A stretch of DNA of 39,733 bases. Origin: Bacteroidota bacterium. GTDB taxonomy: Bacteria > Bacteroidota > Bacteroidia > Chitinophagales > Chitinophagaceae. Under the pieces are notes generated by a model, which was given only the letters and a program-made list of their open reading frames with translations, did not search any database and was not told the origin of the DNA. Of this stretch, positions 1 to 31,043 are shown one piece after another. Where the stretch lies: assembly GCA_013289175.1 (NCBI GenBank), contig JABDAN010000021.1, positions 1 to 39,733 on the forward strand, read 5' to 3'. The stretch's first letter is position 1. Each line of letters starts with the position of its first letter. Position numbers and translations under genes: made by a program.

Positions 1-77
1 TTACCCGATAAATTCACGAGTATTAGTTTTTGCATTTAGTCATAGAAAATTTAAATTTAGTTAGTCATTCGCTGCTT

Positions 78-2699: not shown

Positions 2700-2726
2700 G
2701 CCGTTTACAGCTGGCGGTTAGTATCC

Positions 2727-3812
2727 CTATTTAAAAATCGTTTTCCAATCATTCTTCATACTGATTACCACCCAATTGCTTCTTTTTGCCTGGTCATAAA
2801 GAGCCTGTGTAAAGGTGCCCACTTTAGAATCCGGTAAACCTTGTGCCGGTCCATAGGCATACTCACGGGTGGAATCATCATGTAATACCAGCATCGCCAG
2901 CCTGGCACCTGAACCTCCTTTTGTATATTCCAGCATCTGCTGATCGCCGGTGGAATTACCGAATGCCGCATTGGGCCGGCGCCCGATGATCAACTGAATG
3001 CCCTGCGCTTTGCCCGGACCATTATCGTTCAATACCAGTTTTGGATTTTTGAGCAGGGAAGATTTACCCGTTGCCGTATCATATTGATAGGTTGTTGAAC
3101 CCGCAGTGCCAACCACCTGTTCGGGAGGAATACCATATACCTGATCAGCATAAACGCGTACAAAATCCTGACCCCCGCCGGTTACAATATATGTCTTGTA
3201 TCCATTGGCACGCAAATACTGCATGATCTCCAGCATGGGCTGGTAGATCAGTTCTATATGTAATTTGTTCCAGCGTTTATCTTTTGCTGTAGACACCCAT
3301 TCTTTTACCTGTTGTTTAAAATCTGCTTCCGTCATGCCGGTCAAGGTCGCTGCTGCTATTTTCTCCAGATCGGTGTTGGGTAATTTTGCAATCGCCCCCA
3401 TATTTCCCGTAAGAACCGTTTTAAATGGTTCCACATTTTTCAATGCGGGCTTGGCTTTTACAACATCCGGAACGCGATCCAGGCAATAGATCACTTGACT
3501 ATAGATTGGCTTTTCTACCCAGAGTGTACCATCCTGATCAAAAGTGGCGATCCGTTCACCAGGTTTTACATAGGCGGAATCGGATGAATCGGTTGTTGAA
3601 TGCACAAACTTCAGAATGGCCTGTTTGGCGTCGCCTTCATTCCAGGAAGGAAGCGGGTCGGTAGCGACTTCTTTTGTTTGCCCTGTGGTATCGGTAGCGG
3701 TTGTGTTACTTTCTGATGCATTGTTTCCGCATCCGGAGAAGATTAGGACAAGAAAAATAAAAAGAAGCAGGCTTTTAAAATCCGACAGTCGAGAAGAGGA
3801 TATTTTTTTCAT
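2727..3812 (-). CDS. HAD-superfamily phosphatase, lipoprotein
   Basis: Probable envelope-anchored phosphohydrolase of the haloacid dehalogenase superfamily. It starts with a lipoprotein signal peptide; the lipobox FSGC places the lipidated cysteine at residue 28. A Ser/Thr-rich linker follows. HAD motif I is ATFDQDGTLW, with nucleophile Asp92 and general acid Asp94. Motif II is the YIVTGGG stretch and motif IV the GNSTGDQQM stretch. The length of 361 residues and the inserted helical cap between motifs I and II fit the phosphoserine-phosphatase-like (PF12710) group. It lies downstream of the arylsulfatase on the same strand, but a terminator hairpin sits between them, so it may have its own promoter. 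Substrate is unknown; with its neighbour it could release phosphate and sulfate from esters outside the cytoplasm, which is inference. Confidence 0.85.
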   Translation of the reverse strand: MKKISSSRLSDFKSLLLFIFLVLIFSGCGNNASESNTTATDTTGQTKEVATDPLPSWNEGDAKQAILKFVHSTTDSSDSAYVKPGERIATFDQDGTLWVEKPIYSQVIYCLDRVPDVVKAKPALKNVEPFKTVLTGNMGAIAKLPNTDLEKIAAATLTGMTEADFKQQVKEWVSTAKDKRWNKLHIELIYQPMLEIMQYLRANGYKTYIVTGGGQDFVRVYADQVYGIPPEQVVGTAGSTTYQYDTATGKSSLLKNPKLVLNDNGPGKAQGIQLIIGRRPNAAFGNSTGDQQMLEYTKGGSGARLAMLVLHDDSTREYAYGPAQGLPDSKVGTFTQALYDQAKRSNWVVISMKNDWKTIFK

Positions 3813-3833
3813 AATAGATAAATTCCTTTCGTT

Positions 3834-3870
3834 AAAAAATACGCTGACCGTCCTTGTGAACGGTCTGCGT
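3834..3870 (-). terminator. Rho-independent terminator of the arylsulfatase gene
   Basis: Arms at 3841-3851 and 3860-3870 form an 11-bp stem with one T-T mismatch and an 8-base loop. On the minus strand the hairpin is followed by six Ts (3834-3839). It lies 16 bases past the sulfatase stop codon and before the HAD gene. Confidence 0.75.
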
Positions 3871-3886
3871 AATAAAATGAATAAAG

Positions 3887-5578
3887 TTATTGTCCTGAAT
3901 GATTTTTTTGCATTTCTTCAATTTTCTGTTTTACCGCATCCAGGTTAAATGAAGCAGGGGACTGCATAGGAGGATAATCTATAGCCGTCATCGCCAGTTT
4001 GCCCACAATGGCCTGTACTTCCACAAAACGCCAGAATTCACGCCCGTAAAATTCATTATTATAACCAGCAGCACCAACATTCAGACTTTCGCCCCGATCG
4101 GCAGGCGTGCGTTCAAAAGGATCCTGTCGAAGATTTATGATTGTCGGCATGTCTGTAGTTATTTTTTCTCCAGGCCACCCAAATGGTTGCTGGTAGAATT
4201 GGTATTTGAAATCTCTAAAACGTACGGCACCGAGGGTTGCACCTCCAAAATAGAATATTTCGTCTCTTTTGGAGGGCCCCTTGCCGGTGATCAGGTCGGT
4301 CTGATCATATCCGTCCAAGTGATTTTTGTATGTAGTACCTCCAAGGTTGACTCCTTTCAGCAACTGGTCGATAATGTTGGGATTACCTGCCGCTGTTAAC
4401 AGGGTCGGAAACCAGTCCAATCCTGAAATGATCCCGTTTTCAACGGTACCTGGGGGAACATGTCCGGGCCAGCTTATGATCGCAGGACAACGAAATCCTC
4501 CTTCAAATACAGTTCCCTTGGTGCCCCTGAATGGTGTCATACCTCCGTCAGGCCAGGTGAATACTTCGGCGCCGTTGTCGGTAGAAAAAATGATAATGGT
4601 ATTATCCCGTTCGCCAATGTCGTCAATATGTTTCAATAGGGCCCCGATAGCGTCATCCATTTGTTCCATACCGGCTTCTTCTAAACCATAGTTGCTTTCG
4701 TGGTTCATTTTCGAATAGTATTGTTTAGAGAGAAAACTCCATACATGCATACGGGTGGTATTGTGCCACAGGAAAAAGGGTTTGCCATCTTTTTTTGCCT
4801 GATCCATAAAGCTGTTGGAAGCCTGAACCAACACTTCATCGAAGTTGGTCATGTTGTACTTGGGTTTGAGAAAAGGCAGGTCATGCATATTAGGCACATT
4901 GGTCATATCTGGAAAAGGAGGCAGCGGGCCTTCATCCACAATTTTTTGTTTACCAATTTTCCCCCAGCGCGGCTGAACGGTGGGATCATCAGTAGTAGTG
5001 GCCCAACAATGCAGTACATCCCTGGGTCCATATGCATTAAAAAAAGCTTCGTCAGACGGATATGAATACCAATAGGGATCCGACATCGCATCCAGATGGT
5101 AGAGATAACCAAAGAACTCATCAAAGCCGTGTACCGTTGGGAGAAACTTGTTCAGGTCGCCCAGATGGTTTTTTCCGAACTGCCCAGTAGTATAACCCAG
5201 CGCCTTCAATGCTGTGGCGATTGTGCACGCCTGTGCCGGAAGTCCCACATCGGCACCTGCTTGACCCACGGTGGTCATACCCGTGCGTATCGGGAGCTCA
5301 CCCGTGATAAAATTGGCTCGGCCCGCCGTGCAACTGGCTTCTGCATAGTAATCTGTAAAGCGCATACCGCTGGCGGCTAGCTTGTCTAGATTGGGTGTTC
5401 TGCCAGACATGACCCCCTGATGATAGCAACTCAGATTATACCAACCCACATCGTCGCCCATAATGAAAACAATATTGGGTTTTTTCGTTTGGGCACCAGC
5501 CTGAATAAAAAACATGGATAACGCCAAGACGGATATGACATTCCCGTATCGCATTATGTAAAGGGATAAGCGTTTCAT
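3887..5578 (-). CDS. Secreted arylsulfatase (type I, formylglycine-dependent)
   Basis: Sulfatase that hydrolyses sulfate esters, exported to periplasm or surface. The signal peptide ends at about residue 29 (QAGA before Q30). The metal-binding pair GDD lies at residues 41-43. The activation motif is SCTAGR, with Cys83 and Arg87, matching the bacterial C-x-[PA]-x-R pattern in which Cys is converted to formylglycine. Later STDNG and the FRGTKGTVFEGGFR stretch supply further metal and sulfate ligands. The length of 563 residues is normal for the family. It needs a formylglycine-generating enzyme or anaerobic maturase; neither is in this window. The upstream ABM-like gene ends 90 bases before it on the same strand, so the two may be co-transcribed. 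The natural substrate is not determinable. Confidence 0.93.
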   Translation of the reverse strand: MKRLSLYIMRYGNVISVLALSMFFIQAGAQTKKPNIVFIMGDDVGWYNLSCYHQGVMSGRTPNLDKLAASGMRFTDYYAEASCTAGRANFITGELPIRTGMTTVGQAGADVGLPAQACTIATALKALGYTTGQFGKNHLGDLNKFLPTVHGFDEFFGYLYHLDAMSDPYWYSYPSDEAFFNAYGPRDVLHCWATTTDDPTVQPRWGKIGKQKIVDEGPLPPFPDMTNVPNMHDLPFLKPKYNMTNFDEVLVQASNSFMDQAKKDGKPFFLWHNTTRMHVWSFLSKQYYSKMNHESNYGLEEAGMEQMDDAIGALLKHIDDIGERDNTIIIFSTDNGAEVFTWPDGGMTPFRGTKGTVFEGGFRCPAIISWPGHVPPGTVENGIISGLDWFPTLLTAAGNPNIIDQLLKGVNLGGTTYKNHLDGYDQTDLITGKGPSKRDEIFYFGGATLGAVRFRDFKYQFYQQPFGWPGEKITTDMPTIINLRQDPFERTPADRGESLNVGAAGYNNEFYGREFWRFVEVQAIVGKLAMTAIDYPPMQSPASFNLDAVKQKIEEMQKNHSGQ

Positions 5579-5668
5579 TTTACTTGATCTTAAATGAATA
5601 ATTAGTTTCTGATTGGCCTGTTCTTATAGCATTTTTTCAGGTGGTGTCTTTCATTCTGGAATGGTTTA

Positions 5669-5986
5669 TTAATTAATGTAAATGGTTCTGATTTCAACAT
5701 GGTATCCGATCTCGATTTTTTCCAAAACGCCCATCACATCATAGGCGGTCCGGATCAATTGATATTCCCCGGACTGAATAAACTTTCTCAATGCCGCTTC
5801 GGTGGTCCATTGGGAGAAAAAATAATAGGTATCGGCTGCAAAAATCTTGGCAGACAAATTCTTCACCAGACATTCTTCCGGGAATAACTCGCAGGCATAT
5901 CTGACCGTATTTTCAAATTCACGTTTTCTCAAATCTGTAATCATACCCGAAATTTTCAAAAAATGGATGATTTGCAGCTCAGACAT
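5669..5986 (-). CDS. ABM-like dimeric alpha-beta barrel protein
   Basis: Small 105-residue protein with no signal peptide. The layout is that of an antibiotic-biosynthesis-monooxygenase (ABM) domain, a dimeric ferredoxin-like barrel. It has an N-terminal helix rich in charged residues, then a strand YYFFSQW and a helix with ALRKFIQSGEYQLI. The FFSQW...AL..F..S.EY pattern resembles the YgiN-type quinol monooxygenase group. It is first in the leftward set ahead of the arylsulfatase and faces the ECF sigma gene across a 156-base shared upstream region. Function is unproved: members include monooxygenases and simple ligand-binding proteins. The start is the ATG at 5986. Confidence 0.6.
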   Translation of the reverse strand: MSELQIIHFLKISGMITDLRKREFENTVRYACELFPEECLVKNLSAKIFAADTYYFFSQWTTEAALRKFIQSGEYQLIRTAYDVMGVLEKIEIGYHVEIRTIYIN

Positions 5987-6045
5987 GGCTTCAGTTTTCG
6001 CTTAATTCGCCTGGTTTTTGTTGTTTTACAGGGCAATTCAGGTAT

Positions 6046-6066
6046 CGACGTCAGATAAAGACGTCG
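6046..6066. promoter_or_regulatory. Inverted repeat in the divergent ABM/sigma promoter region
   Basis: CGACGTC (6046-6052) and GACGTCG (6060-6066) form a perfect 7-bp inverted repeat with a 7-base spacer. It lies about 75 bases before the sigma factor gene and about 60 before the ABM-like gene. The size and position suit an operator for either gene; no regulator can be assigned. Confidence 0.35.
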
Positions 6067-6142
6067 TGACGATTTGATTTGTATTAATTGTTCTGAAAAA
6101 ATTTATTTCAGCTTGTTGTGTTCAATCGATTAAAGTGTAGAT

Positions 6143-6850
6143 TTGAACCCTCCTATTCCCGATTACAAGGGAATTCGGGGAGTGAACGAGAGTGGCTTAA
6201 AAAAAAAGGACTTGGTTCAGGAACCTTTGCATAATGAAAGGCAGTTACTTCGGAAAATCTCGGAGGGTGACGATACCGCTTTCAAACATCTTTTTGAAAA
6301 GTATTACGGACAGGTCTATTCCGCCTCTTTCCGATTTCTCAAAGTACATGAGCTGGCGGAGGATTTGGCCCAGACAAGTTTTCTGAAAATTTGGGAAAAG
6401 CGCAAACATCTCAGTCACGTAGAACGCTTTGATGATTATTTATTCGCGATCGCACACAATGAAATGGCCGATCACTTTCGAAAACACAGCAGACGCGAAA
6501 AACACATTCAGCGAATCCGGGAATTATTTGAAGAAGAAACTGGAAGTCCGGAAGAGTTGCTGATTACCAAACAAAAAAGAGCCCTGATTGCAGATGCCAT
6601 CAGCAACCTGCCTCCACAACAAAAAAGAGCTTACACCCTTAGCCGCGACGAAGGCCTCAGCTATCAGGAGATCGCCGATCGAATGCAACTCAGCGTGAAT
6701 ACCGTTAAAGCACATATCTACTTGGTGCTGAAAACATTAAAGGCATTCTTTGCCAGTCACAAAAATGAATACCTGATCTGGCCGTTTATTTTTTCGGTAG
6801 CAGCGGGGAAAATATTTACGGTGACATTAAGCCTTTTCTTAAAGTCATAA
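6143..6850 (+). CDS. ECF RNA polymerase sigma factor (FecI-like)
   Basis: Extracytoplasmic-function sigma factor of the Bacteroidota FecI-like type. Region 2 spans about residues 48-115, including the ELAEDLAQTSFLKIW stretch. Region 4 spans about 143-198, with the helix-turn-helix GLSYQEIADRMQLSVNTVKA. A short hydrophobic C-terminal tail follows, as in many family members. The start is uncertain: no in-frame ATG precedes region 2, and the candidates are TTG at 6143 or GTG at 6182. The FecR gene follows after 16 bases, so the pair is an operon. In the known system the anti-sigma holds this factor until a receptor with an STN domain is occupied. The only STN receptor here is at 78-2699, separated by three opposite-strand genes. 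Confidence 0.92.
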   Translation: MNPPIPDYKGIRGVNESGLKKKDLVQEPLHNERQLLRKISEGDDTAFKHLFEKYYGQVYSASFRFLKVHELAEDLAQTSFLKIWEKRKHLSHVERFDDYLFAIAHNEMADHFRKHSRREKHIQRIRELFEEETGSPEELLITKQKRALIADAISNLPPQQKRAYTLSRDEGLSYQEIADRMQLSVNTVKAHIYLVLKTLKAFFASHKNEYLIWPFIFSVAAGKIFTVTLSLFLKS

Positions 6851-6866
6851 CGTCTAAATAAGAGAA

Positions 6867-8075
6867 ATGGATCATTCTGGACCCTTCGTATTTAATGAGC
6901 TTCTAAAAGGCTATCTGAGCGAATCGCTGAATCCACAGCAGCTGGCTCTTTTTTTTGAAATGTCAGCTGCCCCCGAAAACACTGAGATTCTTGCGGAGAT
7001 TTTTCGTAAGGAACTAAAAACCGTTTTACCCGACCTGACCAACCAGGAGCAAATAGAGGAGGCCTGGGTGAAGCTTCGAGCAGAAAAGGAAAAACATCCA
7101 CGGCGTTTTGTCCAAATGCGAATGGTTTATCGATGGGTGGCGATCGTGATTTGCCTGCTGGGTGTTACATTAGTTTTATACCAACTCAAGCAATCAAAGA
7201 ATCACGCGGTTATCGCCAGCATCCAAGCGGCGGTAAAAACGCCGGCATGGCTGAAAGCGGAACATATGGGCGCCGTATTGATCCTGGCCGGAGGTGATTC
7301 CCTTGCGCTGGATGATCAAGATAAAGGAGTCATTGCAACGCAGGACGGTATTCAGGTGATACAATCGGGCGGTGTAGTCCGTTATTCCGGCATAAGCCAG
7401 AGCCTAGTGTACAATGAAATCCGCACAGGAAAAGGAAAACTCTGGCGTGCCATCCTACCGGATCAAACGGTGGTATGGTTGAATGGGAACTCGTCCATAA
7501 AATACCCGTTGCAGTTTAGTTCAGATACCCGTTCTGTAGAGATGACCGGCGAAGTATATTTTGAAGTTGTCCACAATCCTGCAAAACCATTTCTTGTTCA
7601 CATTCTGTTAACCACTCCGGCAAGCAGGCGGGATCAACAGTCAACCATTGAAGATCTGGGCACCACATTTAATGTCCGGTCTTATAGAGATGATTCCGTT
7701 ACAACGGCCACGCTGGTGGAAGGTTCTGTGATGGTCACCCAGAATATTCAACAGGCCACCCTGACTGCGGGGCAGCAATCGGTGGTGGGAACCGATAGGA
7801 ACGAATTCCGTATTGTTCAGAAAGCAAATATCAATGAGGCTCTCGCATGGAAAAACGGGGTTTTCTATTTTCAGAATGCCGGGCTGCCTAAAGTGATGAA
7901 ACAGATCGCTGATTGGTATCAGGTGGGCGTGGTATATAAAGGCAACGCGGGCGGAAAATTATTCAGCGGGCAGATTAGTAAATCGCTACCACTTTCTTAT
8001 GTGCTGGAGGGTCTTCAACAACCCGGGGTGAAGTTTAGCCTGAACGGCGATCAGATAACCGTAATTCAGGAATAA
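6867..8075 (+). CDS. FecR-type anti-sigma factor (FecR + DUF4974)
   Basis: Inner-membrane anti-sigma factor that should relay outer-membrane receptor status to the sigma factor encoded just upstream. The cytoplasmic N-terminus covers about residues 1-86 and carries the sigma-binding helices. A single membrane segment lies at about 88-106 (WVAIVICLLGVTLVLYQL). The periplasmic FecR beta domain spans about 187-290, including VVWLNGNSSIKYP and MTGEVYFEV. A C-terminal DUF4974 domain at about 333-400 includes FYFQNAGLPKVMKQIADWY; this domain has an STN-like fold and is the expected contact with the receptor. The length of 402 residues is normal. It sits 16 bases behind the sigma gene and 24 bases ahead of the 2H phosphoesterase gene. 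Confidence 0.93.
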   Translation: MDHSGPFVFNELLKGYLSESLNPQQLALFFEMSAAPENTEILAEIFRKELKTVLPDLTNQEQIEEAWVKLRAEKEKHPRRFVQMRMVYRWVAIVICLLGVTLVLYQLKQSKNHAVIASIQAAVKTPAWLKAEHMGAVLILAGGDSLALDDQDKGVIATQDGIQVIQSGGVVRYSGISQSLVYNEIRTGKGKLWRAILPDQTVVWLNGNSSIKYPLQFSSDTRSVEMTGEVYFEVVHNPAKPFLVHILLTTPASRRDQQSTIEDLGTTFNVRSYRDDSVTTATLVEGSVMVTQNIQQATLTAGQQSVVGTDRNEFRIVQKANINEALAWKNGVFYFQNAGLPKVMKQIADWYQVGVVYKGNAGGKLFSGQISKSLPLSYVLEGLQQPGVKFSLNGDQITVIQE

Positions 8076-8099
8076 AAAAACAATTTAAACTTTCATTTT

Positions 8100-8816
8100 A
8101 TGCAGAAAAAATCACTCTTTAAAGTGATCAGCTGCCTCGCACTGATCCTGTTTTCTTTCAGCTTTAAAGCCTCCATGGCACAAACCAACGTGACTGCTAT
8201 TGATATCCTGCTCAATCCAGACCAGACCATGCTGGATTCTGCAAAGGCCTACAATGGACTCATGCGAAAAAATTATTCCGGTCCCGGCAGCTTTTCATTG
8301 GATGCGGTACACACGCCGCACGTGAGTGTACTGCAATGTTTTGTGGAAACCGCCAACCTGAAAAAAGTATTTGATGCAGTGGACAAAGTGGTCAAAAGTC
8401 AGCAGCCACAAAAAGAAACGCTTACTACCAAAGGATTTTACTACATCCCGGATAATACTATGGGATTAGCTGGTATTACGATCAATACGACACCTAAACT
8501 GTTAGAATATCAATCGAAAATAATTGAGGCAGTGAAACCCTATATTGTGACGGGCACGGACGCAGCATTCGTACAAAACGCAAACGGAAGACCCCTTGTA
8601 AAAGGCCTGTCTGAATATGTAAATGGTTTTATTCCAGACCATAGTGGCGCAAAATATCTCCCGCATGTAACGATTGGACTGGCTAAAGAAACTTATTTAA
8701 AAGCGTTGATGGCTAAACCTTACCAGGCATTCTCTTTCAAAATTTCTTCTGCTAGTATTTATCACCTGGGGGATTATGGCACTGCACAGAAAAGATTATG
8801 GACAAGTACAAAATGA
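8100..8816 (+). CDS. Secreted 2H phosphoesterase (2'-5' RNA ligase-like)
   Basis: Probable periplasmic phosphodiesterase of the 2H superfamily. The signal peptide ends at about residue 28 (MAQ). The two hallmark His-x-Ser/Thr motifs are present: HVS at residues 74-76 and HVT at 189-191, 115 residues apart, each in a hydrophobic strand (THPHV-like and LPHVTIGLA). The superfamily includes 2'-5' RNA ligases, LigT/ThpR and cyclic phosphodiesterases, which open or hydrolyse 2',3'-cyclic or 2'-5' phosphodiester bonds. Most characterised members are cytoplasmic, so an exported one is less usual. It follows FecR by 24 bases, where a TonB receptor would normally be, and is followed by a clean terminator. 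It is therefore probably the output gene of this sigma operon. The substrate is unknown. Confidence 0.8.
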   Translation: MQKKSLFKVISCLALILFSFSFKASMAQTNVTAIDILLNPDQTMLDSAKAYNGLMRKNYSGPGSFSLDAVHTPHVSVLQCFVETANLKKVFDAVDKVVKSQQPQKETLTTKGFYYIPDNTMGLAGITINTTPKLLEYQSKIIEAVKPYIVTGTDAAFVQNANGRPLVKGLSEYVNGFIPDHSGAKYLPHVTIGLAKETYLKALMAKPYQAFSFKISSASIYHLGDYGTAQKRLWTSTK

Positions 8817-8847
8817 AAATGAAATACCACCAGTCCAGGGCACAAAT

Positions 8848-8875
8848 AACCTCTCATCTTCGATGAGAGGTTTAT
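8848..8875 (+). terminator. Terminator after the sigma/FecR/2H operon
   Basis: A perfect 11-bp stem (8848-8858 with 8862-8872) with a 3-base loop is followed by a short T run. It begins 31 bases after the 2H phosphoesterase stop codon. The T tract is short, so termination strength is uncertain. Confidence 0.7.
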
Positions 8876-9026
8876 GCATTCATTCGAGAAGCTTCAAAAG
8901 AAAATTCAAATTGACTCAAAACTCCAATAGAAAAACGACCCGCCTTTCCAACAACATCACTTGTTCAAACATAAAAATAAACGACACAGAGCTGACATGT
9001 GAAGACTCCCACTACTTTCTAGTTCT

Positions 9027-9638
9027 TTAATGCCCCCCAAAATCGAATACCAATCCGCCGGTAAATCCAAACAGGAGAATCGTGGAGTAGGTGGTATAAG
9101 AATAAGGAGGGTAGCCATATCCCGGGGAATAAAATGCAGTTCCCGTTGCCTGTGCCGCACCCAATAATTGAGCACCGATTTTAACTCCGACAGAGCTGCT
9201 GGCTTTAAATTTCACCCCTGCTTTCAGATCCCAAGCAAATTTGGTGGTGTTGGCGGAGGCAGTGATAATGGCTGCACCCAAACCAATTCCGCCGTAAGGT
9301 TGGATCTTGGGATTGTTCAACAAGTATTGTTCAAAATTCAGCAAAATAGTAGAAATCGTTGCCGTCGTATTACTGAATAGCTGATTGTTGCCAAGATAGG
9401 AATACATGGGAATATGGGTCCTCTGGTATTGATACAACAATTCTAGTCCTGTTCCTTGCGGGTTTACCCCTTCAAGAGACGCTCCAAATATGCCGCCAGC
9501 ATTGATATAGGCATAGGCATTTCCAAAATTGACCTTGTCGCGGAAATCATACCCGCCATACAGATTCAAAGACAAATGCTGTGAAAAACCGGTTGCCGCC
9601 ATAAATAGGACGACGGAAGTGATCAGTAATTTTTTCAT
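9027..9638 (-). CDS. Outer-membrane beta-barrel protein, paralog A
   Basis: Small outer-membrane protein of 203 residues. The start at ATG 9638 gives a clean signal peptide (MKKLLITSVVLFMAATGFSQ); the frame stays open for 36 codons further upstream but that extension has no signal. The mature part is a run of short alternating aromatic/glycine strands ending in GGLVFDFGGH, the profile of an eight-stranded barrel. It shares YGGIGLGAAII and overall length with the protein at 10292-10903, so the two are paralogs lying back to back. No enzymatic motif is seen. Function is unknown; such proteins are usually structural or porin-like. Confidence 0.75.
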   Translation of the reverse strand: MKKLLITSVVLFMAATGFSQHLSLNLYGGYDFRDKVNFGNAYAYINAGGIFGASLEGVNPQGTGLELLYQYQRTHIPMYSYLGNNQLFSNTTATISTILLNFEQYLLNNPKIQPYGGIGLGAAIITASANTTKFAWDLKAGVKFKASSSVGVKIGAQLLGAAQATGTAFYSPGYGYPPYSYTTYSTILLFGFTGGLVFDFGGH

Positions 9639-10291
9639 AATAGTTTTAATATGGTGATGATAGGATTGACTATAACAAATGGATTGATCCAAATTTTCTC
9701 TTACCTGCGCATGTGCAGAACTTTTTCCAACCTGAATGCTCAACATTCACTACTTAATGAATCTTCAATTGCCAAATTACGTGTTTAACCCATTTCAACA
9801 TCCATCGGCTCAAAAATTCCATTAAGTAAATCAAGCATCACTATGGCGGGTTTTGGGTTGAAGGCATCGTAGATTGTTATTTTTAGAAAATATAAAGTTA
9901 CTTTAAACGGATATTAATTTTTTCAAGTTTGCCTGATGACTTGAATGGCACTTATAATCTGCAGAAACCGGAAATCCGGTTTCATTCCCAGATCCATTAT
10001 CTCATCCAAAATGAACCGATACCAGCATTCCTGTTATTTTGGTAATATAATTTGGGACACTGTAAATCCAACATAATCAATTGAATATCAATAATTTTTG
10101 CTTTCTTTGGTTAGATGCCTTTCTAAATAAATTAAAATGTTTTTATTTTTTTGACTTGTAATCTTTCTTGTAGGTGCGACTGGCACAAATAAGGCGTCAC
10201 TTCGAATATCCATCTTATTTTGGTAGCACCCTGGTTGGTGAGATTACACTGTATAAGACTTGTAAATCACAACTATCCGTAACTTCATTTC
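9639..10291. other. Intergenic region between divergent barrel genes
   Basis: Shared upstream region of 653 bases for the two divergent barrel paralogs. It is AT-rich, with no convincing coding frame on either strand. The one clear structure is the inverted repeat at 9965-9982. Confidence 0.5.
9965..9982. repeat. Short inverted repeat AAACCGGA-aa-TCCGGTTT
   Basis: Eight-base arms around a two-base centre, between the divergent barrel genes. A related imperfect version lies at 18702-18723 (AAACC, GGA, TCC, GGTTT in the same order with small insertions). It could be an operator or a small hairpin; no T run follows. Confidence 0.4.
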
Positions 10292-22825: not shown

Positions 22826-24121
22826 CTATTTCTCTCCGGAACTTGCGCTGTGGCTTCCTGGTATCGGTATCAGTTCATTTGCCAGGTTTACTAAAGGCAG
22901 TGAAAGTATAAAAGTGGAACCTTTATTTACTACGCTGTTTACCGAAATCGCACCCCCATGCTTTTCTGCTATTTTCTTACAAAGTGCCAATCCTATCCCT
23001 GTTCCATCAAATTCGGCTCCAGGATGCAGTCGGCGAAACATATCAAAAATCTCCTTAGCATATTTTTGTTCAAATCCGATTCCGTTGTCCTCAATAAAAA
23101 TTCGACAATATTTTTTCTTTCCCCTTATTTCAGAAAATGACCCTTGCGAAACGGGAAGATCGGTACGAATACGAATAAAGGAGTCTTCAAAGTTTCGACT
23201 ATATTTTATCGCATTGCTTATCAGATTAGAAAATAAGGGATTCATCAATACCGGATTTACATAAAGGTGCGGCAGTTTGTCTACTATTACTTTTATTTTC
23301 TTTTGTTCTATCTGTTCTTCAAAGTCCGCCAATATTTGATCGATGATAATATTTAAGTCCACTTCCCTGAATAATTCTTTCTTCACTGAAATTTTAGAAA
23401 ATTCCAGAATATCATTGATTAATAGTTGCATCTGTTTACAACCATTCTGTATCCGGGTCAGGTGAGCTTGCCCCTCCTCATCTATTTTATTAACATAATC
23501 CATCATAAGACGGTCGCTAAACATCCTGATTTTTCGCAAGGGGGCTTGCAAATCATGGGATGCCATAAAAGCAAAAAGATCCAATTCTTTATTGGCTGAC
23601 TCCAATCTCGAAATATTTTGCAGCAATTGGAGGTTCAATGCGCTCACTTGTTCTTCAGAAGCTTTTCTTTCCTGAATTTCAAGTTCCAGGTTTTTATTAA
23701 TGGCAATTAACCGTTGCTCTTGGGCAAGCAACTGGGCATTTTTACGATATAATTCAATAAAAACTGCAACCTTTGCCCTTAATAACTCGGGATTAATAGG
23801 CTTATAAATATAATCCACAGCCCCTGAACGATAACCTTCGAATATGTTGTCTTCACCATAGTTGTTGGCGGTAATAAATATGATCGGAATATGTCGAAGT
23901 CGTTCTCTTTCATATATCAAGGTAGCCGTTTCAAATCCGTTCAGGTTGGGCATATTCACATCCATCAGAATTAGGGCAAAATCAACCTGGGTCAATAATA
24001 TTTTCAATACCTGTTTACCAGAAGTGGCTTTTACGAAGTTGTATTTCCCGGATTCCAAAATGGTTTCCATCGACAACAAATTGTCCTCCCGATCATCAAC
24101 TAATAAAATACTAGGATACAT
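22826..24121 (-). CDS. REC-histidine kinase (receiver at N-terminus)
   Basis: Soluble kinase of 431 residues. The N-terminal receiver domain covers about residues 3-122, with acidic pair Asp9/Asp10, phospho-acceptor Asp54 in LILMDVNMP, Thr84 and Lys107. A coiled coil spans about 125-180. HisKA follows, with His189 in FMASHDLQAPL, then HATPase_c with Asn303 in NLISNAIKY, the G1 box EDNGIGF (344-350) and the G2 box GTGIGLAL. There is no membrane segment or separate sensor domain, so the receiver probably acts as the input. Its ATG is 7 bases after the stop of the poly-HAMP kinase, so the two are one operon and this protein is a likely phosphorelay partner. Confidence 0.93.
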   Translation of the reverse strand: MYPSILLVDDREDNLLSMETILESGKYNFVKATSGKQVLKILLTQVDFALILMDVNMPNLNGFETATLIYERERLRHIPIIFITANNYGEDNIFEGYRSGAVDYIYKPINPELLRAKVAVFIELYRKNAQLLAQEQRLIAINKNLELEIQERKASEEQVSALNLQLLQNISRLESANKELDLFAFMASHDLQAPLRKIRMFSDRLMMDYVNKIDEEGQAHLTRIQNGCKQMQLLINDILEFSKISVKKELFREVDLNIIIDQILADFEEQIEQKKIKVIVDKLPHLYVNPVLMNPLFSNLISNAIKYSRNFEDSFIRIRTDLPVSQGSFSEIRGKKKYCRIFIEDNGIGFEQKYAKEIFDMFRRLHPGAEFDGTGIGLALCKKIAEKHGGAISVNSVVNKGSTFILSLPLVNLANELIPIPGSHSASSGEK

Positions 24122-24128
24122 ACCTTAT

Positions 24129-27100
24129 TTATTTATAAAACCAAACCCGCATTAGTGAAAGCAGTTGATCTATCTTTAAAGGTTTTGTAATATAATCGGA
24201 AGCGCCTGCTTCAATACATTTCTGCCTGTCGCCTTTCATAGCTTTGGCAGTCACCGCAATAATAGGAAGGCTATTATTCTTGTGTTCCCGACGTATTTTC
24301 AAGGTGGTTTCATACCCATCCATTTCTGGCATCATAATATCCATCAGGACCATCTCAATTTTTTGATTTTCATCGTTGAGGATGTCGATGGCATCTCGGC
24401 CGCTCTCTGCGGTAATCACATTAATATTGTAGCGTTCAAAAACCGTCGTAAGGGCAAACAGGTTGCGAATATCGTCGTCAACAACGAGAATGTTTTTGCC
24501 GGTCAGGATATCACTTTTTATTCGAATATTCTCAAGAATGCGCTTTTTTTCAAGAGGAAGGTCCTTGTGATCAATATGTAATTGAAGTACCGCTTCTTCC
24601 AATAGAAATTCCAGGGACTTTACACCTTTCAAGAGTATGGTATTCGAGTTTTTATAAATGTTCAGCAACTCCTTCTTGTCAAAATCCTTAGCCGAATAAA
24701 TGATTACAGGTGTAAGATTGCGTTTATTCTCTCCAAGTTTTTCTAACAAGTGGTGACCCGACATATCCGGAAGGGAATAGTCCATAATAATACAATCGAA
24801 GGAATCTAAATCTTGCGCGAGTGCCTTGGTGGCTGTTTCCGCAAGTACTACTTCAATCCGCTCATTGGTTAGCATCTTGATAATTTGAGAGGCGTCCGTT
24901 TCGTTATCTTCGATCACTAGGATTTTTCTGGAATCTTTTTTAGAAAAGGAGACGATATCCTCAAAGAGCTCTTTCAATGATTCGTTCTCTAATGGTTTTA
25001 AAAGAAAACTCCGCGCCCCCCGCTTGAGTGCCAGATCCCGATTTTCTTCACCGGAAATGAGGTGAATCGGAATATGTCTAAAATTCATATCATTTCTCAG
25101 GAGGTCCAGTACCTTCCAACCACTTGTATCCGGTAGTTTCACATCCAGCGTGATGGCGATAGGCGTAAACCGGGAGATAAAATCAAAAACTTCAAGATAA
25201 TTAGAGGCCACGATTGCTTTCAAATTGTACTGGTGTGCCATTTCGATCACGATCTTCCCAAAGCGAAAATCATCTTCCACGATCATTATGATTTTATCGC
25301 CTGGATGGATGTTCGTCCTGTCATCTCCTGTATCATTGATCATTTCATTTACGATCTGCAGGTGATCTGACTCCATTCCACCCGTTGTCACCCGCAATGA
25401 ATTTAGTAATGTATCTATTTCACCACTGTCTGATCCCAATTGCAACTGACGGAAGGCACTCATGTTTTCGGAGGTCTCTTTTTTAATTAGCCCAGCTTCG
25501 TTTTCAATGGGCAGAAAAAGGGTAAATGTACTTCCTTGAGATGGTAAACTTTCCAATTCAATGGTACCTCCCAATAGTTCCGCTAGCCCACGGCTGATGG
25601 ATAGACCTAGTCCAGTGCCACCATACTTACGGCTGGTCGAGCCCTCAGCCTGTTGAAAAGCCTCAAATATGATATTTTGTTTTTCCTGTGGTATACCGAT
25701 ACCCGAATCGCTAATTGCAAAGGCGACAACTCGATCTGCAAAGTCCAGATTACTGTTGCCAGTTTTCCAGTTGCGGTTGGCTTCATAAATCTTCAATTTT
25801 ACCTCTCCTTTCTCTGTGAATTTGAAAGAATTGGAAAGGAGATTTTTGAGGATCTGATTTAGGCGCTGTAAATCCGTATCGACCGATTCTGGAAGATTGG
25901 AATCGGTTTCAATGGTAAACCGGAGATGCCGGGCTTCCGAAATCGGTTTGAAGGTTGTTTCCACAAATGAGGCGATTTCGCTGAAACGTACCGGTGCAAT
26001 ATTGGCTGTAATAAATCCGGATTCAATTTTTGACAGATCAAGGATGTCATTTATGAGCTGAATGAGGTCATCGCCGCAGGAGTGAATCGTTTTGGCATAT
26101 CTGATTTGCTTGTCATTCAGGTTCCCTTCCGCGTTTTCATATAACTGTTGGGCCAGGATCAAAAGGCTGTTTAGCGGTGTTCTTAACTCATGTGACATAT
26201 TGGCCAGAAACTCAGACTTGTATTTAGATGTCAGGGTCAACTGCTCGGCTTTCTCTTCTAGCGATTTTCTGGCTTCTTCCACTTCCTTGTTCTTCGCCTC
26301 AACTTCATTCTTTTGTTTTACGAGCAGCAATGCCTTGTCTTGAAGTTCGTCATTTGTTCTGCGAAGCTCTTCCTGCTGAATTTTCAATTCACCCGCCAAT
26401 GACTGTGATTGAGCCAACAATCCTTCGGTGCGGGTATTGGCTTCGATCGTGTTCAGTACAATACCGATACTTTCAGTAAGCTGACTTAAAAAATCCAGGT
26501 GGGTTTCACTGAATTCATCCAAGGACGCCAACTCAATGACCGCTTTTACTTTATTTTCAAATAACACCGGTAAAATAATCAGGTTAGCTGGTTTTGCTCG
26601 CCCCAGACCAGAATTGATTTTTATGTAATTGCCTGGAATATTGGACAGAATGATTCGCTCCTTCTCAAATGCTACCTGACCAACCAGGCCTTCTCCAATG
26701 GAGAATTGAGTGGGTATTTGTTTATCAGTTTTATAGCCGTAAGCAGAAAAAAGACTCAAACTAACAGACTGACTATTTTCATCCTGAGTAAGAATATAAA
26801 ATGCACCATAGTGAGCCGTCACTACCTGAGCCAATTCGGAAAGAATTCTTTGTGTTACCGTTTTCAGATCCTTCTGGCCTTGAAGCATTTGAGTAAATGT
26901 AGCGAGGTTGGATTTCAACCAGTCCTGTTCCTGATTTCTCAAAGTCGTCTCCTTGAGATTGGCAATCATCTGGTTGATTGTATCTTTTAGGGCCTCCACT
27001 TCTCCCTTTGCTTCTACCCGAATGGTTCGGGTTAGGTCTCCCTTGGTAACCGCAGATGCTACTTCAGAAATGGATCTTACTTGGGTGGTTAAATTTTGCG

Positions 27101-30100
27101 CTAGCTGATTAACGTTTTCTGTCAAGTTTTTCCAAATACCGGAAGCACCTGGTACGCTGGCTTGTCCACCCAGGCGTCCGTCCACTCCCACCTCCCGCGC
27201 TACAGTGGTTACTTGATCAGCAAATAGGGCCAAGGTGTCGATCATTTCATTGATGGTATCGATTAGCTGGGCCACTTCTCCCCGGGATACGATGGCAAGT
27301 TTTTGTTTGAGGTTACCGGTTGCTACGGCCGTTACTACTTTGGCAATTCCACGGACCTGATTGGTCAGGTTCGAAGCCATCATATTTACACTGTCTGTTA
27401 GATCCTTCCAGGTCCCAGCAACCCCCCTGACCTCGGCTTGCCCCCCTAATTTTCCTTCCGTACCAACCTCCCTGGCCACCCGTGTCACTTCAAAGGCAAA
27501 AGAGTTCAATTGTTCCACCATCGTATTGATGGTGTTTTTCAAATCCAGAATTTCCCCCTTTACATCAATCGCTACGGTTTTGGATAAATCGCCACTGGCC
27601 ACCGCTTTCGTTACTTCGGCAATATTGCGTACCTGGGCAGTTAGATTACCCGTCATCTGGTTTACTGAGTCTGTTAAATCTTTCCATGTTCCGGCAACCC
27701 CTGGTACAAAAGCCTGTCCCCCTAGTTTACCATCGGTCCCCACTTCGCGGGCAACGCGCGTTACTTCAGAAGCGAATGCACGCAACTGATCCACCATGGT
27801 ATTCAGGGTCTCTTTCAGGCGGAGAATTTCCCCCCGCACATCTACGGTAATTTTTTTTGACATATCCCCATTTGCCACGGCTATTGCCACTTCTGCAATA
27901 TTTCGAACCTGCGCAGTCAGGTTTCCCGCCATTTGGTTTACTGAGTCCGTTAAGTCTTTCCAAGTTCCTGCTACGCCGGGTACATTGGCTTGTCCTCCGA
28001 GTTTACCTTCCGTTCCCACTTCGCGGGCTACACGGGTTACTTCAGATGCAAATCCTCGCAATTGATCTACCATCGTATTGATGGTATTTTTTAACTCAAG
28101 AATTTCTCCTCTCACATTTACCGTGATCTTTCTGGATAAATCTCCATTCGCCACAGCCGTTGTCACTTCCGCAATATTTCTAACCTGAGAGGTAAGGTTG
28201 CTGGCCATTTTATTCACACTGTCGGTAAGGTCTTTCCAGGTTCCTCCCACGCCCGGCACGTCAGCCTGGCCACCGAGTTGTCCTTCTGATCCCACTTCAC
28301 GGGCCACACGCGTAACTTCCGAACCGAATGAGTTCAGCTGATCCACCATGGTGTTGATGGTGTTTTTTAATTCGAGGATTTCACCCTTTACATCCACCGT
28401 AATTTTTCTAGACAGATCCCCTTTTGCGACGGCAGTGGTTACTTCGGCAATATTTCGCACCTGACCAGTAAGGTTACTGGCCATCCCATTTACACTATCA
28501 GTCAGATCCTTCCAAACCCCCCCCACCCCTTCCACTGCTGCCTGTCCACCCAGTTTGCCTTCAGAACCTACTTCGCGGGCAACCCGGGTAACTTCCGAGG
28601 CAAACCCACGCAATTGTTCCACCATCGTATTGATGGTATTTTTTAATTCCAGGATTTCCCCCTTTACATCCACATCGATTTTTCGGGAAAGATCTCCTGT
28701 GGCCACCGCTGTAGTCACTTCAGCGATATTTCGCACTTGAGAAGTCAGGTTACTGGCCATCTTATTGACACTGTCCGTTAAATCTTTCCAGGTTCCCCCC
28801 ACGCCCGGTACGTCGGCCTGACCGCCCAGCTTTCCTTCTGATCCCACTTCACGCGCTACCCGCGTTACTTCAGAACCAAAAGAATTGAGTTGATCTACCA
28901 TGGTATTGATGGTATTTTTCAATTCCAGGATTTCTCCCTTTACATCCACCGTGATTTTTCTAGACAAATCGCCCTTTGCCACAGCGGTGGTTACTTCGGC
29001 AATATTTCGAACCTGACCAGTCAGCGAACTGGCCATTCCATTTACGCTATCGGTCAGATCTTTCCAAGTTCCAGCGACGCCTTTTACCTGCGCCTGACCA
29101 CCCAGTTTCCCTTCCGTACCCACTTCGAGTGCAACCCGGGTTACTTCAGAAGAAAAAGAGTTCAGCTGATCCACCATGGTGTTGATGGTATTTTTCAATT
29201 CTAGTATTTCTCCCTTTACATCCACCGTGATTTTTCGGGATAAATCCCCTTTGGCCACCGCTGTTGTTACTTCGGCGATATTTCGAACCTGCCCGGTGAG
29301 ATTACTGGCCATCTGATTGACAGAATCTGTCAAATCTTTCCAAACACCGCCTACGCCTTTAACTTTAGCCTGACCACCCAATTTTCCCTCTGACCCTACT
29401 TCACGGGCTACCCTTGTCACTTCACCAGAAAACGAATTGAGCTGATCAACCATCGTGTTGATCGTATTTTTCAATTCCAATATTTCACCTTTTACATCCA
29501 CGGTAATCTGCCGGGATAAATCGCCCTTCGCAAAGGCTGTAGTTACTTCCGCGATATTTCGTACCTGACCAGTCAGGTTGCTGGCCATTTGATTTACCGA
29601 GTCGGTTAGGTCCTTCCAGGTTCCTGCTACGCCTTTTACCTGCGCCTGACCACCCAGTTTCCCTTCCGTACCCACTTCGAGTGCAACCCGGGTTACTTCA
29701 GAAGAAAAAGAGTTCAGCTGATCAACCATGGTGTTGATGGTATTTTTCAATTCTAGTATTTCACCTTTTACATCAACGGTAATTTTCTTGGATAAGTCTC
29801 CCTTGGCAACAGCGGTCGTCACTTCGGCAATATTGCGCACCTGCGCCGTCAGATTACTACCCATCTGATTTACGGAATCGGTCAAATCCTTCCATACCCC
29901 GCCCACTCCCTTTACTTTTGCCTGACCACCCAGTTTGCCTTCGGATCCCACTTCCCGCGCTACGCGGGTTACTTCCATGGAAAAAAGATTGAGTTGTTTT
30001 ACCATGTCGTTGACCTCTTTGGCAATTCTAGAGAATTCGCCCTGTAAAGCGTGGCCGCCAATTTCGGAAGGCATTTCTTGAGAAAGATTACCCTTAGCCA

Positions 30101-30548
30101 CGGAACTGATTACATGGGCAATTTCAATCGTGGGTGTAACAAGATCGGCAATCAACGCGTTCAGAGACCCCACACCAGTGCTCCAAGCTCCCTTGACACT
30201 CGGTACTTCAATGCGCTGGTTCAGTTTTCCTTGTTTACCGATCGTATTGCCGGCGCGTGTAAATTCAAGCATCATTTCCTCATTTAAGGAAATGATGTCA
30301 TTGAGTGTATCACATATTTTTCCCTGTATTCCTACCCTATCGATGGGCATGCGTACCTTAAAATTTCCATTTTTCACTTCTGTTAGGACAGTCAGCAACT
30401 CACGATCTTCGTACAAATTGTTCACTACGATATGGCCGTGCCCGTTAGATGGGTGATTTAAGTCGGTCTGGCTAGCAGTTTTGATTTTAGCAGGCTTTGG
30501 GGAAGTTTTGACTGGTTTGGCTGCAGTAGTCCTTTTCAAAACACGCAT
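24129..30548 (-). CDS. Giant soluble poly-HAMP hybrid histidine kinase with three receivers
   Basis: Hybrid kinase of 2139 residues with no signal peptide or membrane helix. A basic tail (1-40) is followed by a divergent HAMP-type unit (about 46-139), an atypical unit (140-236), ten regular 92-residue units (237-1156) and a final half unit. Each unit carries [17 protein letters not shown] and WKDLTDSVN signatures. A GAF domain lies at about 1225-1370 and a coiled coil at about 1375-1440. HisKA has His1453 in [13 protein letters not shown]. HATPase_c has Asn1573 and the DSGIGIP box at 1614-1620. Three receivers follow: Asp1802 (about 1753-1868), Asp1923 (about 1875-1990, with LLKG instead of KP) and Asp2070 (about 2019-2135). 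The layout is that of fungal group III (Nik1/Os-1) kinases, which sense osmotic or cell-wall stress. The signal here is unknown. Confidence 0.93.
27081..29840 (-). repeat. Ten tandem 276-bp HAMP-coding repeats
   Basis: In-frame 276-bp units encode residues 237-1156 of the giant kinase with no length variation. Unit variants alternate: units with ALEVGTEG...QVKGVAG (second and fourth of the array) and with AREVGSEG...DVPGVGG (fifth and seventh) recur two units apart, giving a 552-bp higher-order period. Confidence 0.9.
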
Positions 30549-30641: not shown

Positions 30642-31043
30642 ATGAAACCCAAAACCGGAAACCTGATATTTATAGTTGATGACGACCCCGACGACCGGCA
30701 GATTATTTTAGACGCTTTCGTAAAAAACAACGCCGAGTTGGATTTTGTGTTTGTCGACAGCGCTGAAGATCTTCTCCATAGGCTGCACATCATGGAAAGT
30801 GAATTTCCGAATCTCATTATACTGGATCTTAACATGCCTGGTATCATGGGGTTACAAGCGCTTAAGGAAATCAGATCGAATAAGAAGTTCAGTCAGATTC
30901 CAATTGTTATTCTCACCACTTCCACTTTAAACAATGATCGCAAAATATCTTATGAATTGGGAGCAAGCTGCTTTTTGACCAAGCCAGATTCATTTTCAAC
31001 CATGATCGCTTATGCCAATGCCATGATCACACTTTGGTTATAG
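30642..31043 (+). CDS. Single-domain response regulator (Rcp1-like)
   Basis: Stand-alone receiver domain of 133 residues with no output domain. The acidic pocket is VDDDPDD, the phospho-acceptor Asp is in LIILDLNMPGIMG, the conserved Thr is in VILTTST and the Lys is in CFLTKPDSF. It resembles the Rcp1/CheY-like regulators that receive phosphate from soluble hybrid kinases. It is divergent from the poly-HAMP kinase with only 93 bases between the starts, which suggests shared control and a role as substrate or phosphate sink of that kinase. Confidence 0.9.
   Translation: MKPKTGNLIFIVDDDPDDRQIILDAFVKNNAELDFVFVDSAEDLLHRLHIMESEFPNLIILDLNMPGIMGLQALKEIRSNKKFSQIPIVILTTSTLNNDRKISYELGASCFLTKPDSFSTMIAYANAMITLWL

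Follow-up and report, generated by a model that had tools for sequence, protein, structure and literature searches.

A soluble bacterial poly-HAMP hybrid histidine kinase whose array is highly conserved, variable in unit number, and fixed at its end

A poly-HAMP hybrid kinase gene

The window analyzed here is all of contig 21 (39,733 nucleotides) from a 3.2 Mb Bacteroidota genome assembly, which comprises 130 contigs and is rated about 80% complete. An earlier note on this DNA described a gene for a soluble hybrid kinase with an array of HAMP domains, as in the fungal kinases Nik1/Os-1. The gene is real: it is an exact, single open reading frame (Table 1). The kind of protein was also identified correctly. 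A Pfam search of the protein gave HAMP (PF00672) in 11 stretches (379 bits, far above chance) and HAMP_2 (PF18947) in 12 stretches, as well as GAF_2, HisKA, HATPase_c, and three stretches of Response_reg, which are all of the domains that had been placed after the array. The phosphoacceptor His1453 and the receiver aspartates Asp1802, Asp1923, and Asp2070 are all present. As the note had claimed, we found no membrane segment in the kinase: the highest mean hydropathy over 19 residues was 1.46, versus 2.3–3.1 for three membrane proteins of the window that served as controls. The GAF domain, which could act as a separate sensor, sits between the array and the kinase and not inside the array.

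Table 1. Features of the kinase gene and of the adjacent signaling genes, in window coordinates.
Feature	Coordinates	Strand	Remarks
Poly-HAMP hybrid histidine kinase gene	24129..30548	minus	2139 aa, single ORF
N-terminal tail, aa 1-46, low complexity	30411..30548	minus	K+R 8 vs D+E 1 in aa 1-44
Divergent cap, aa 47-191 (145 aa), predicted three HAMPs	29976..30410	minus	homologous to solved 9trk/9trj
Central units 1-7 (7 x 92 aa, predicted 14 HAMPs)	28044..29975	minus	count differs among relatives
Units 8-9 (2 x 92 aa)	27492..28043	minus	retained in the short genus/family arrays L052 and L054
Unit 10, first HAMP regular, second HAMP divergent	27216..27491	minus	penultimate in 59/66 complete relatives
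Unit 11, both halves divergent	26940..27215	minus	last unit in 66/66 complete relatives (L082 unreliable)
GAF domain, aa 1226-1365	26454..26873	minus	Pfam and structure model
HisKA, aa 1444-1511, phosphoacceptor His1453	26016..26219	minus	Pfam and residue check
HATPase_c, aa 1559-1682	25503..25874	minus	Pfam
Receiver 1, Asp1802	24939..25292 (approximate bounds)	minus	Pfam
Receiver 2, Asp1923	24579..24923 (approximate bounds)	minus	least conserved among compared domains
Receiver 3, Asp2070	24153..24491	minus	Pfam
Rec-HK (receiver-HisKA-HATPase, 431 aa; Asp54, His189)	22826..24121	minus	7 bp downstream of the kinase
Single-domain receiver (133 aa, Asp62)	30642..31043	plus	divergent, 93 bp upstream of the kinase

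Pfam also returned matches of the protein to SpoIIID (63 bits), RHH, FliE, and the like. No single stretch passes alone, and we regard these matches as artefacts of the repeats. The matches of the helix-turn-helix type overlap the HAMPs.

Repeat anatomy and HAMP count

The array comprises eleven units at a spacing of exactly 92 residues (aa 192-1203). The earlier note had the spacing right but counted ten regular units; it also placed two divergent units ahead of them and half a unit after. Upstream of unit 1 we find a divergent cap that is about one and a half units long, and there is no half unit after unit 11. Units 1–9 are 75–97% identical to each other (82–97% among units 1–7). Unit 10 is 64–67% identical to units 1–9: its first half is 83–89% identical to theirs and its second half just 41–50%. 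Unit 11 is 51–58% identical to the remaining units.

Each unit is probably a pair of HAMPs, which would give a total of about 25 in the protein instead of the roughly eleven that had been proposed. We call the first half of the unit a HAMP because of the predicted structure and because CaNik1p has 92-residue HAMP pairs (PMC3848655). A single-chain AlphaFold model of the cap and two units has eight helices, and the six internal ones, of 24–33 residues, alternate with the connectors. Of the seven connectors, three lie in the cap and the other four are split equally between the units. The model's top PDB matches are to the poly-HAMP of Aer2 (3lnr; probability 1.00, E = 0.024), and no PDB match is below E = 0.001. 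The modeling that the earlier note suggested thus agrees with a HAMP array, at modest confidence overall (mean pLDDT 63.6): the cap is mostly above 70, but the two units are mostly below 60 and much of them is below 50. In a sequence search, the solved chains 9trk and 9trj matched the cap and the units that follow it (E = 5e-117 and 4e-66). These chains of 356 and 264 residues are fused to Gcn4p, and 9trk spans a homolog's cap and its first unit and a half. Our search of the open-licence literature found no paper that we could tie to either entry.

HAMP profiles match the array, as had been expected, but they do not recognize every part of it. The second HAMP of unit 1, cut out alone, matches PF00672 (43 bits), while the first, cut out alone, matches no Pfam family. 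When the trimmed halves of the unit were aligned as profiles, the result was not significant (probability 2%); an untrimmed run aligned only the stretch that is common to both segments.

Distribution of the family

One scan found at least 588 matching stretches (which are not distinct genes), and the cap region is matched by 168 plasmid records. Among the at least 588 matches listed, the cap's nearest named relatives are from a Chitinophagaceae MAG (87% identity) and from Niastella (85%), which suggests that the window also comes from a Chitinophagaceae bacterium. Among 296 genomes sampled from the window's phylum, 17 have a match at E ≤ 0.001, and ten of these, including the window's own, have a match below 1e-40. 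Among relatives, the fraction is 24/58, again with the window's own included. The family is known, broad, and patchy in its distribution, and the protein is a bacterial relative of the group III (Nik1/AskA/AskB) hybrid kinases, which is a published kind. So the array is of the fungal type, as proposed, but it is not rare in bacteria, as the earlier note implied: besides the scan, there are the published Amb07, AskA, and AskB.

The number of units varies but the end of the array is fixed

We searched for homologs with differing unit counts, as the note advised. Across 66 complete relatives, the number of units ranges from 6 to 13, so the window's eleven is mid-range and not extreme. These relatives span ten groups (phyla or proteobacterial classes), with labels that were assigned by hand and in part by kinship to the window. 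Another 40 ORFs were set aside because they were cut by contig ends, had broken arrays, or had no visible kinase, GAF, or cap. In 65 of the 66 complete proteins, all spacings are 92 residues, or multiples of this where an anchor was missed, and the offset from the array to the GAF domain is constant in 65/66 as well. Both odd and even counts occur, so the idea that units are gained or lost only in pairs is not supported.

The last unit resembles unit 11 in all 66 proteins, counting L082, which we kept although the unit walk failed (a spacing of 149) and whose call is unreliable. The penultimate unit resembles unit 10 in 59 of the 66, and we found no 10-like unit at any other position in these proteins. 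The seven proteins without a 10-like penultimate unit are six of the seven from β-proteobacteria and L082. Also, outside of the Bacteroidota, the margin by which units were called 10-like is small (group medians of 4–11 points where called). Both of these observations count against the mechanism that we propose below. The shortest arrays from the genus or family (L052 and L054) have no units of the 1–7 type and keep units 8 to 11. The ends of the array are fixed and its middle varies in number. The open-licence literature that we searched did not describe such a pattern for bacteria. It does agree with fungal genetics, where regulation maps to the final two repeats: in DhNik1, repeat 4 of the five is required for regulation through repeat 5 (reviewed in PMC5159414).

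The array is highly conserved

We compared the window's protein to nine orthologs whose arrays likewise comprise eleven units. Units 1–7 are 94–99% identical, units 8–9 are 96–99% identical, unit 10 is 88–100% identical, and unit 11 is 91–100% identical. HisKA is similarly conserved (97–100%), as are the coil before it (91–97%) and the short linker (91–95%). Identities are 78–85% for the cap, 75–87% for GAF, 82–92% for HATPase, and 73–84%, 51–58%, and 88–90% for receivers 1, 2, and 3. Among close orthologs, no part of the protein evolves more slowly than the array and HisKA. For comparison, the HAMP of a conventional membrane kinase from the same genome is 62–81% identical in genus members (the best 15 matching, the window's own aside).

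Is this just because little time has passed, or because the units were copied from each other? In a codon-by-codon comparison with five orthologs, 11 to 32 of the 1012 residues of the array have changed, while the codons of unchanged residues differ at a rate of 0.54–0.60. With independent draws of codons, that is, at saturation, we expect 0.58–0.63. Within the window's array, same-residue codon pairs differ at a rate of 0.49–0.53, depending on which units are chosen, and with 49–53% of these silent choices differing, the units must be old. It is therefore very improbable that the units are alike only through recent duplication or gene conversion, and we rejected this explanation: silent sites are near saturation even though units 1–7 retain 82–97% residue identity, and when we compared the 55 units of five eleven-unit arrays from the genus, 53 were most similar, as protein, to the window's unit at the same position (93–100% identity as protein and 75–82% as DNA). 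A slight excess of silent similarity does remain, which is the sign that recent copying would leave. It is largest in units 2 and 4, and the longest exact repeat is 95 bp.

To look beyond close relatives, we used the median best match in 17 proteins from outside the Bacteroidota. The central units are 81–89% identical, as compared to 71–81% for HisKA, 57–65% for HATPase, 48–59% for GAF, and 44–54% for the cap. Choosing the best match inflates the figure for the central units, but the plain mean for non-Bacteroidota units against the window's units 1–7 is still 83.7%. Across phyla, the array is the most conserved of the parts that we measured.

GAF is a type of domain that can act as a sensor, so the array might be no more than a passive spacer or relay, and the true sensor might be the GAF domain, which would bind a small ligand. 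A GAF domain is present in every complete protein with units and a kinase (although our filter for the 66 also demanded it), and the top structure matches of the GAF model include cAMP/cGMP-type GAFs, ptsP-type GAFs, and fRMsr (best E = 2.4e-08). The freely variable number of units would also suit a spacer. On the other hand, it would be surprising for a passive spacer to exceed the other parts in conservation across phyla: with Bacteroidota included (20 proteins), the median best match is 81–93% for the central units and 48–68% for GAF. We consider this explanation unlikely.

We scored 504 central units, drawn from 65 proteins, and 63 of the 92 positions reach 90% conservation or more (this analysis left out L040, L044, L062, L082, L096, L114, and L132). 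When units 10 and 11 are compared within their own classes, the numbers are about the same (63/92 and 60/92), which counts against the special role that we propose for them. Conservation at 63 positions is probably more than a four-helix core needs. The conserved faces might instead serve lateral assembly, with many dimers or mixed kinases in a cytosolic signaling cluster. Consistent with this, AskA and AskB from Myxococcus xanthus bind each other, but the accessible text of PMC7643160 does not map their contact to the array. Lateral assembly seems to us quite unlikely.

A basic N-terminal tail

Another possibility is that the basic N-terminal tail, or the array, anchors the kinase to the nucleoid. 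The first 30 residues have a net charge of +2 to +8 in all 18 proteins from the genus or family (the window's and 17 others), and across the Bacteroidota, the median charge of the tail is +5 (range −3 to +14, n = 38). There are precedents: in FrzCD, a basic N-terminus engages DNA (PMC12077210), the fungal kinase TcsC is directed to the nucleus by its N-terminus (PMC11253588), and two assays showed binding of AskB to promoter DNA, while for AskA only a pull-down did so (PMC7643160). However, cyanobacterial tails are short and have a median charge of −2 (n = 10, with start codons taken mechanically), so a basic tail is not a trait of the whole family. One of the 25 other ORFs of at least 160 residues in the window has an N-terminus as positive as the kinase's, and the helix-turn-helix and SpoIIID matches described above do not help, as they overlap HAMPs or look like repeat artefacts. 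Overall, a tether to the nucleoid seems improbable.

Neighboring genes and a putative phosphorelay

The gene just downstream of the kinase encodes a Rec-HK, with a receiver at its N-terminus, then HisKA and HATPase, and with its phosphorylatable Asp and His intact. We examined 73 loci, including the window's, that have a kinase-bearing array gene with a closed 3′ end and at least 1.5 kb of downstream sequence. A receiver-first kinase lies directly downstream in 45 of these: 35/38 Bacteroidota (window included), 4/5 α-proteobacteria, 2/4 Acidobacteriota, 2/9 Cyanobacteriota, 1/3 Myxococcota, and 1/1 Dormibacterota. As background, there are 13 other receiver-first kinases in the 1355 kb of the same loci. 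Twenty of the loci belong to the window's own genus or family, so these counts are not independent. They are also low, since the profile missed the Rec-HK of L048, which tblastn places, and that of L135, from Pseudomonas, whose neighbor is receiver-HisKA_3-HATPase by Pfam.

By profile, the other 28 loci have no receiver-first kinase downstream, which counts against the proposed mechanism. None was found in the eight loci from β-proteobacteria, the two from γ-proteobacteria, or the single loci from Elusimicrobiota, Verrucomicrobiota, and Bacillota. Two β-proteobacterial loci that we tested have REC-GGDEF-EAL upstream instead. The common theme among the neighbors is a receiver-headed enzyme, though many loci are without one. 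A divergent receiver gene lies upstream in 13 of 16 loci from the genus or family (L039–L054).

It is plausible that the Rec-HK is the next step of the relay from the hybrid kinase, by analogy to LvrA and LvrB of Leptospira, which are encoded in an operon and are likewise a cytoplasmic hybrid kinase and a Rec-HK. According to the available portions of PMC5863495 and PMC13269768, LvrA phosphorylates the receiver of LvrB, which raises LvrB's activity; the helices of phosphorylated LvrB then come together as a coiled coil, and this releases the catalytic domains. The same portions describe PAS domains in LvrA and do not describe a poly-HAMP array. The earlier note had asked why there is no HPt. 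If the relay is of the LvrA/LvrB type, then plausibly none need be encoded at this locus; the answer may lie 7 bp beyond the gene that the note considered. Receiver 2 is the least conserved domain and may have a regulatory role more than a catalytic one.

Comparison to characterized systems

The closest published proteins in overall design are AskA and AskB from M. xanthus and Amb07 from Sorangium, which belong to a different phylum than the window. According to PMC7643160, these too are soluble hybrid kinases from bacteria; they carry several receivers as well as a poly-HAMP region, which is described as longer than NIK1's. A receiver-bearing kinase gene, askC, is directly downstream of askB, which is the same order as in the window, and the products of the two genes bind each other. 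The paper describes AskC as a hybrid kinase with a receiver domain. Of these three M. xanthus kinases, it was AskC alone that bound ambruticin in vitro, which counts against our mechanism.

The fungal group III kinases (Nik1/Os-1, DhNik1, CaNik1p, TcsC, and Bos1) also have 92-residue HAMP pairs and no membrane segment, and they also carry HisKA, HATPase, and a receiver (PMC3848655). CaNik1p has nine HAMPs there (four pairs and a single one), versus about 25 predicted here. In fungi, the relay runs through the HPt protein Ypd1 (PMC10512271; PMC3848655 also mentions the HPt), while the neighbor here is a Rec-HK. Group III has been called fungal-specific (PMC11253588). The window's protein is encoded in a bacterial genome and so falls outside a group of fungal proteins that feed the HOG pathway, and unlike the fungal proteins, it has a GAF domain and three receivers. 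We presume that the units of the array are strongly similar to those of fungal group III. Aer2 shares the stacked HAMP fold with the predicted array, but it is a chemoreceptor, and its HAMPs number three plus two (PMC3570549).

A proposed mechanism

We infer that the kinase is cytosolic and presumably dimeric, with its roughly 25 HAMPs stacked end to end as a long rod of perhaps 60 nm (a rough estimate, at about 24 Å per HAMP). The 92-residue spacings and the constant offset from the array to GAF fit with a rigid stack in which phase matters. The cap would start the stack; the near-identical central units would set the length of the rod and would be the part that is exposed to the input; and units 10 and 11 would turn the state of the stack into a decision between kinase and phosphatase. 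Their output would pass through the short linker, GAF, and the coil into the helices of HisKA, with GAF as a second, ligand-type input. His1453 would then phosphorylate the protein's own receivers as well as the Asp54 receiver of the adjoining Rec-HK, whose phosphorylation would release the second kinase to act on a regulator encoded elsewhere. The divergent single receiver could act as a phosphate sink or as a third branch. As the input, the physical state of the cytoplasm (osmolarity or crowding) or a partner protein seems most likely.

We think that this proposal, taken as a whole, has about an even chance of being correct. Fungal studies give mixed guidance. In favor of the proposal, CaNik1p that lacked all of its HAMPs activated the pathway in yeast without a stimulus; its activation of Hog1 was read as less phosphotransfer (PMC3848655). 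In contrast, DhNik1 without four of its five repeats is reported to be a constitutively active kinase. The differing directions of these deletions count against the mechanism, as does the report that fludioxonil does not act directly on the kinase (PMC6433957).

A stronger version is that the central units are a frozen polymer of variable length that is itself the sensor of the cytoplasm's physical state: its near-identical units, each with two states, would respond jointly, with the last two units reading the sum and the receiver-headed neighbor carrying the output. This version is speculative and unlikely.

Implications

The window's gene is not exceptional in itself: its family was already known, and it contributes one more member. 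The comparative patterns are the more useful outcome. Fungal research has yet to settle how a soluble HAMP array senses anything, a question that is linked there to the action of fungicides. With the bacterial family, this question can be put to the test: the array evolves under tighter constraint than do most catalytic and receiver domains, natural differences in unit number preserve the frame, the terminal pair of units is set apart, and a specific partner for phosphotransfer is predicted. If the array is a polymer that senses the state of the cytoplasm, then one receptor design would be shared across many bacterial phyla and the fungi.

Repeat matches and apparently interrupted genes

SpoIIID and RHH Pfam matches extend across the array of 92-residue HAMP-type units, and no single stretch of the array passes alone. 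In a passage of the paper on AskA, AskB, and AskC from Myxococcus xanthus (PMC7643160), SpoIIID-like partial matches are taken as possible DNA-binding domains. These partial matches may be repeat artefacts.

Among the relatives, the poly-HAMP genes of loci L040, L044, L096, L114, L125, L131, and L132 each appear as at least two ORFs, interrupted within or near the array. Because repeats are difficult to assemble, these interruptions may be assembly faults; L040 contains an ambiguous base.

Elsewhere in the window's genome, the reading frame of a membrane histidine kinase is interrupted between the HAMP/PAS half and the HisKA half, which leaves two ORFs. The 15 best-matching members of the genus have open frames of 568–599 amino acids at this position, and the split kinase is either a broken gene or an assembly error.

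Coordinates of the features discussed
Feature	Location	Positions	Context
Poly-HAMP kinase	window	24129-30548 (-)	SpoIIID and RHH matches across array
TonB-dependent receptor, sulfatase, ECF sigma factor, FecR genes	window	30-8075	uptake-type; link to poly-HAMP kinase not evident
Split membrane histidine kinase, one ORF	L001 (window genome contig 51)	928-1845	
Split membrane histidine kinase, other ORF	L001 (window genome contig 51)	1850-2722	
Receiver-GGDEF-EAL gene	L095 (β-proteobacteria)	8069-9952	immediately upstream of poly-HAMP kinase
Receiver-GGDEF-EAL gene	L133 (β-proteobacteria)	8054-9889	immediately upstream of poly-HAMP kinase

Possible horizontal spread and alternative outputs

The patchy occurrence of the poly-HAMP kinase in a sample of 296 genomes of the phylum, together with the very high conservation of its units across phyla, suggests horizontal spread. 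Plasmids may be the vehicle. In PLSDB, the divergent cap region ahead of the array was matched by 168 plasmid records, of which 111 are from Rhizobium and 69 are predicted to be conjugative. In β-proteobacteria, the receiver-GGDEF-EAL neighbour hints that a c-di-GMP output replaces the second kinase, the receiver-HisKA-HATPase protein encoded beside the window's poly-HAMP gene.
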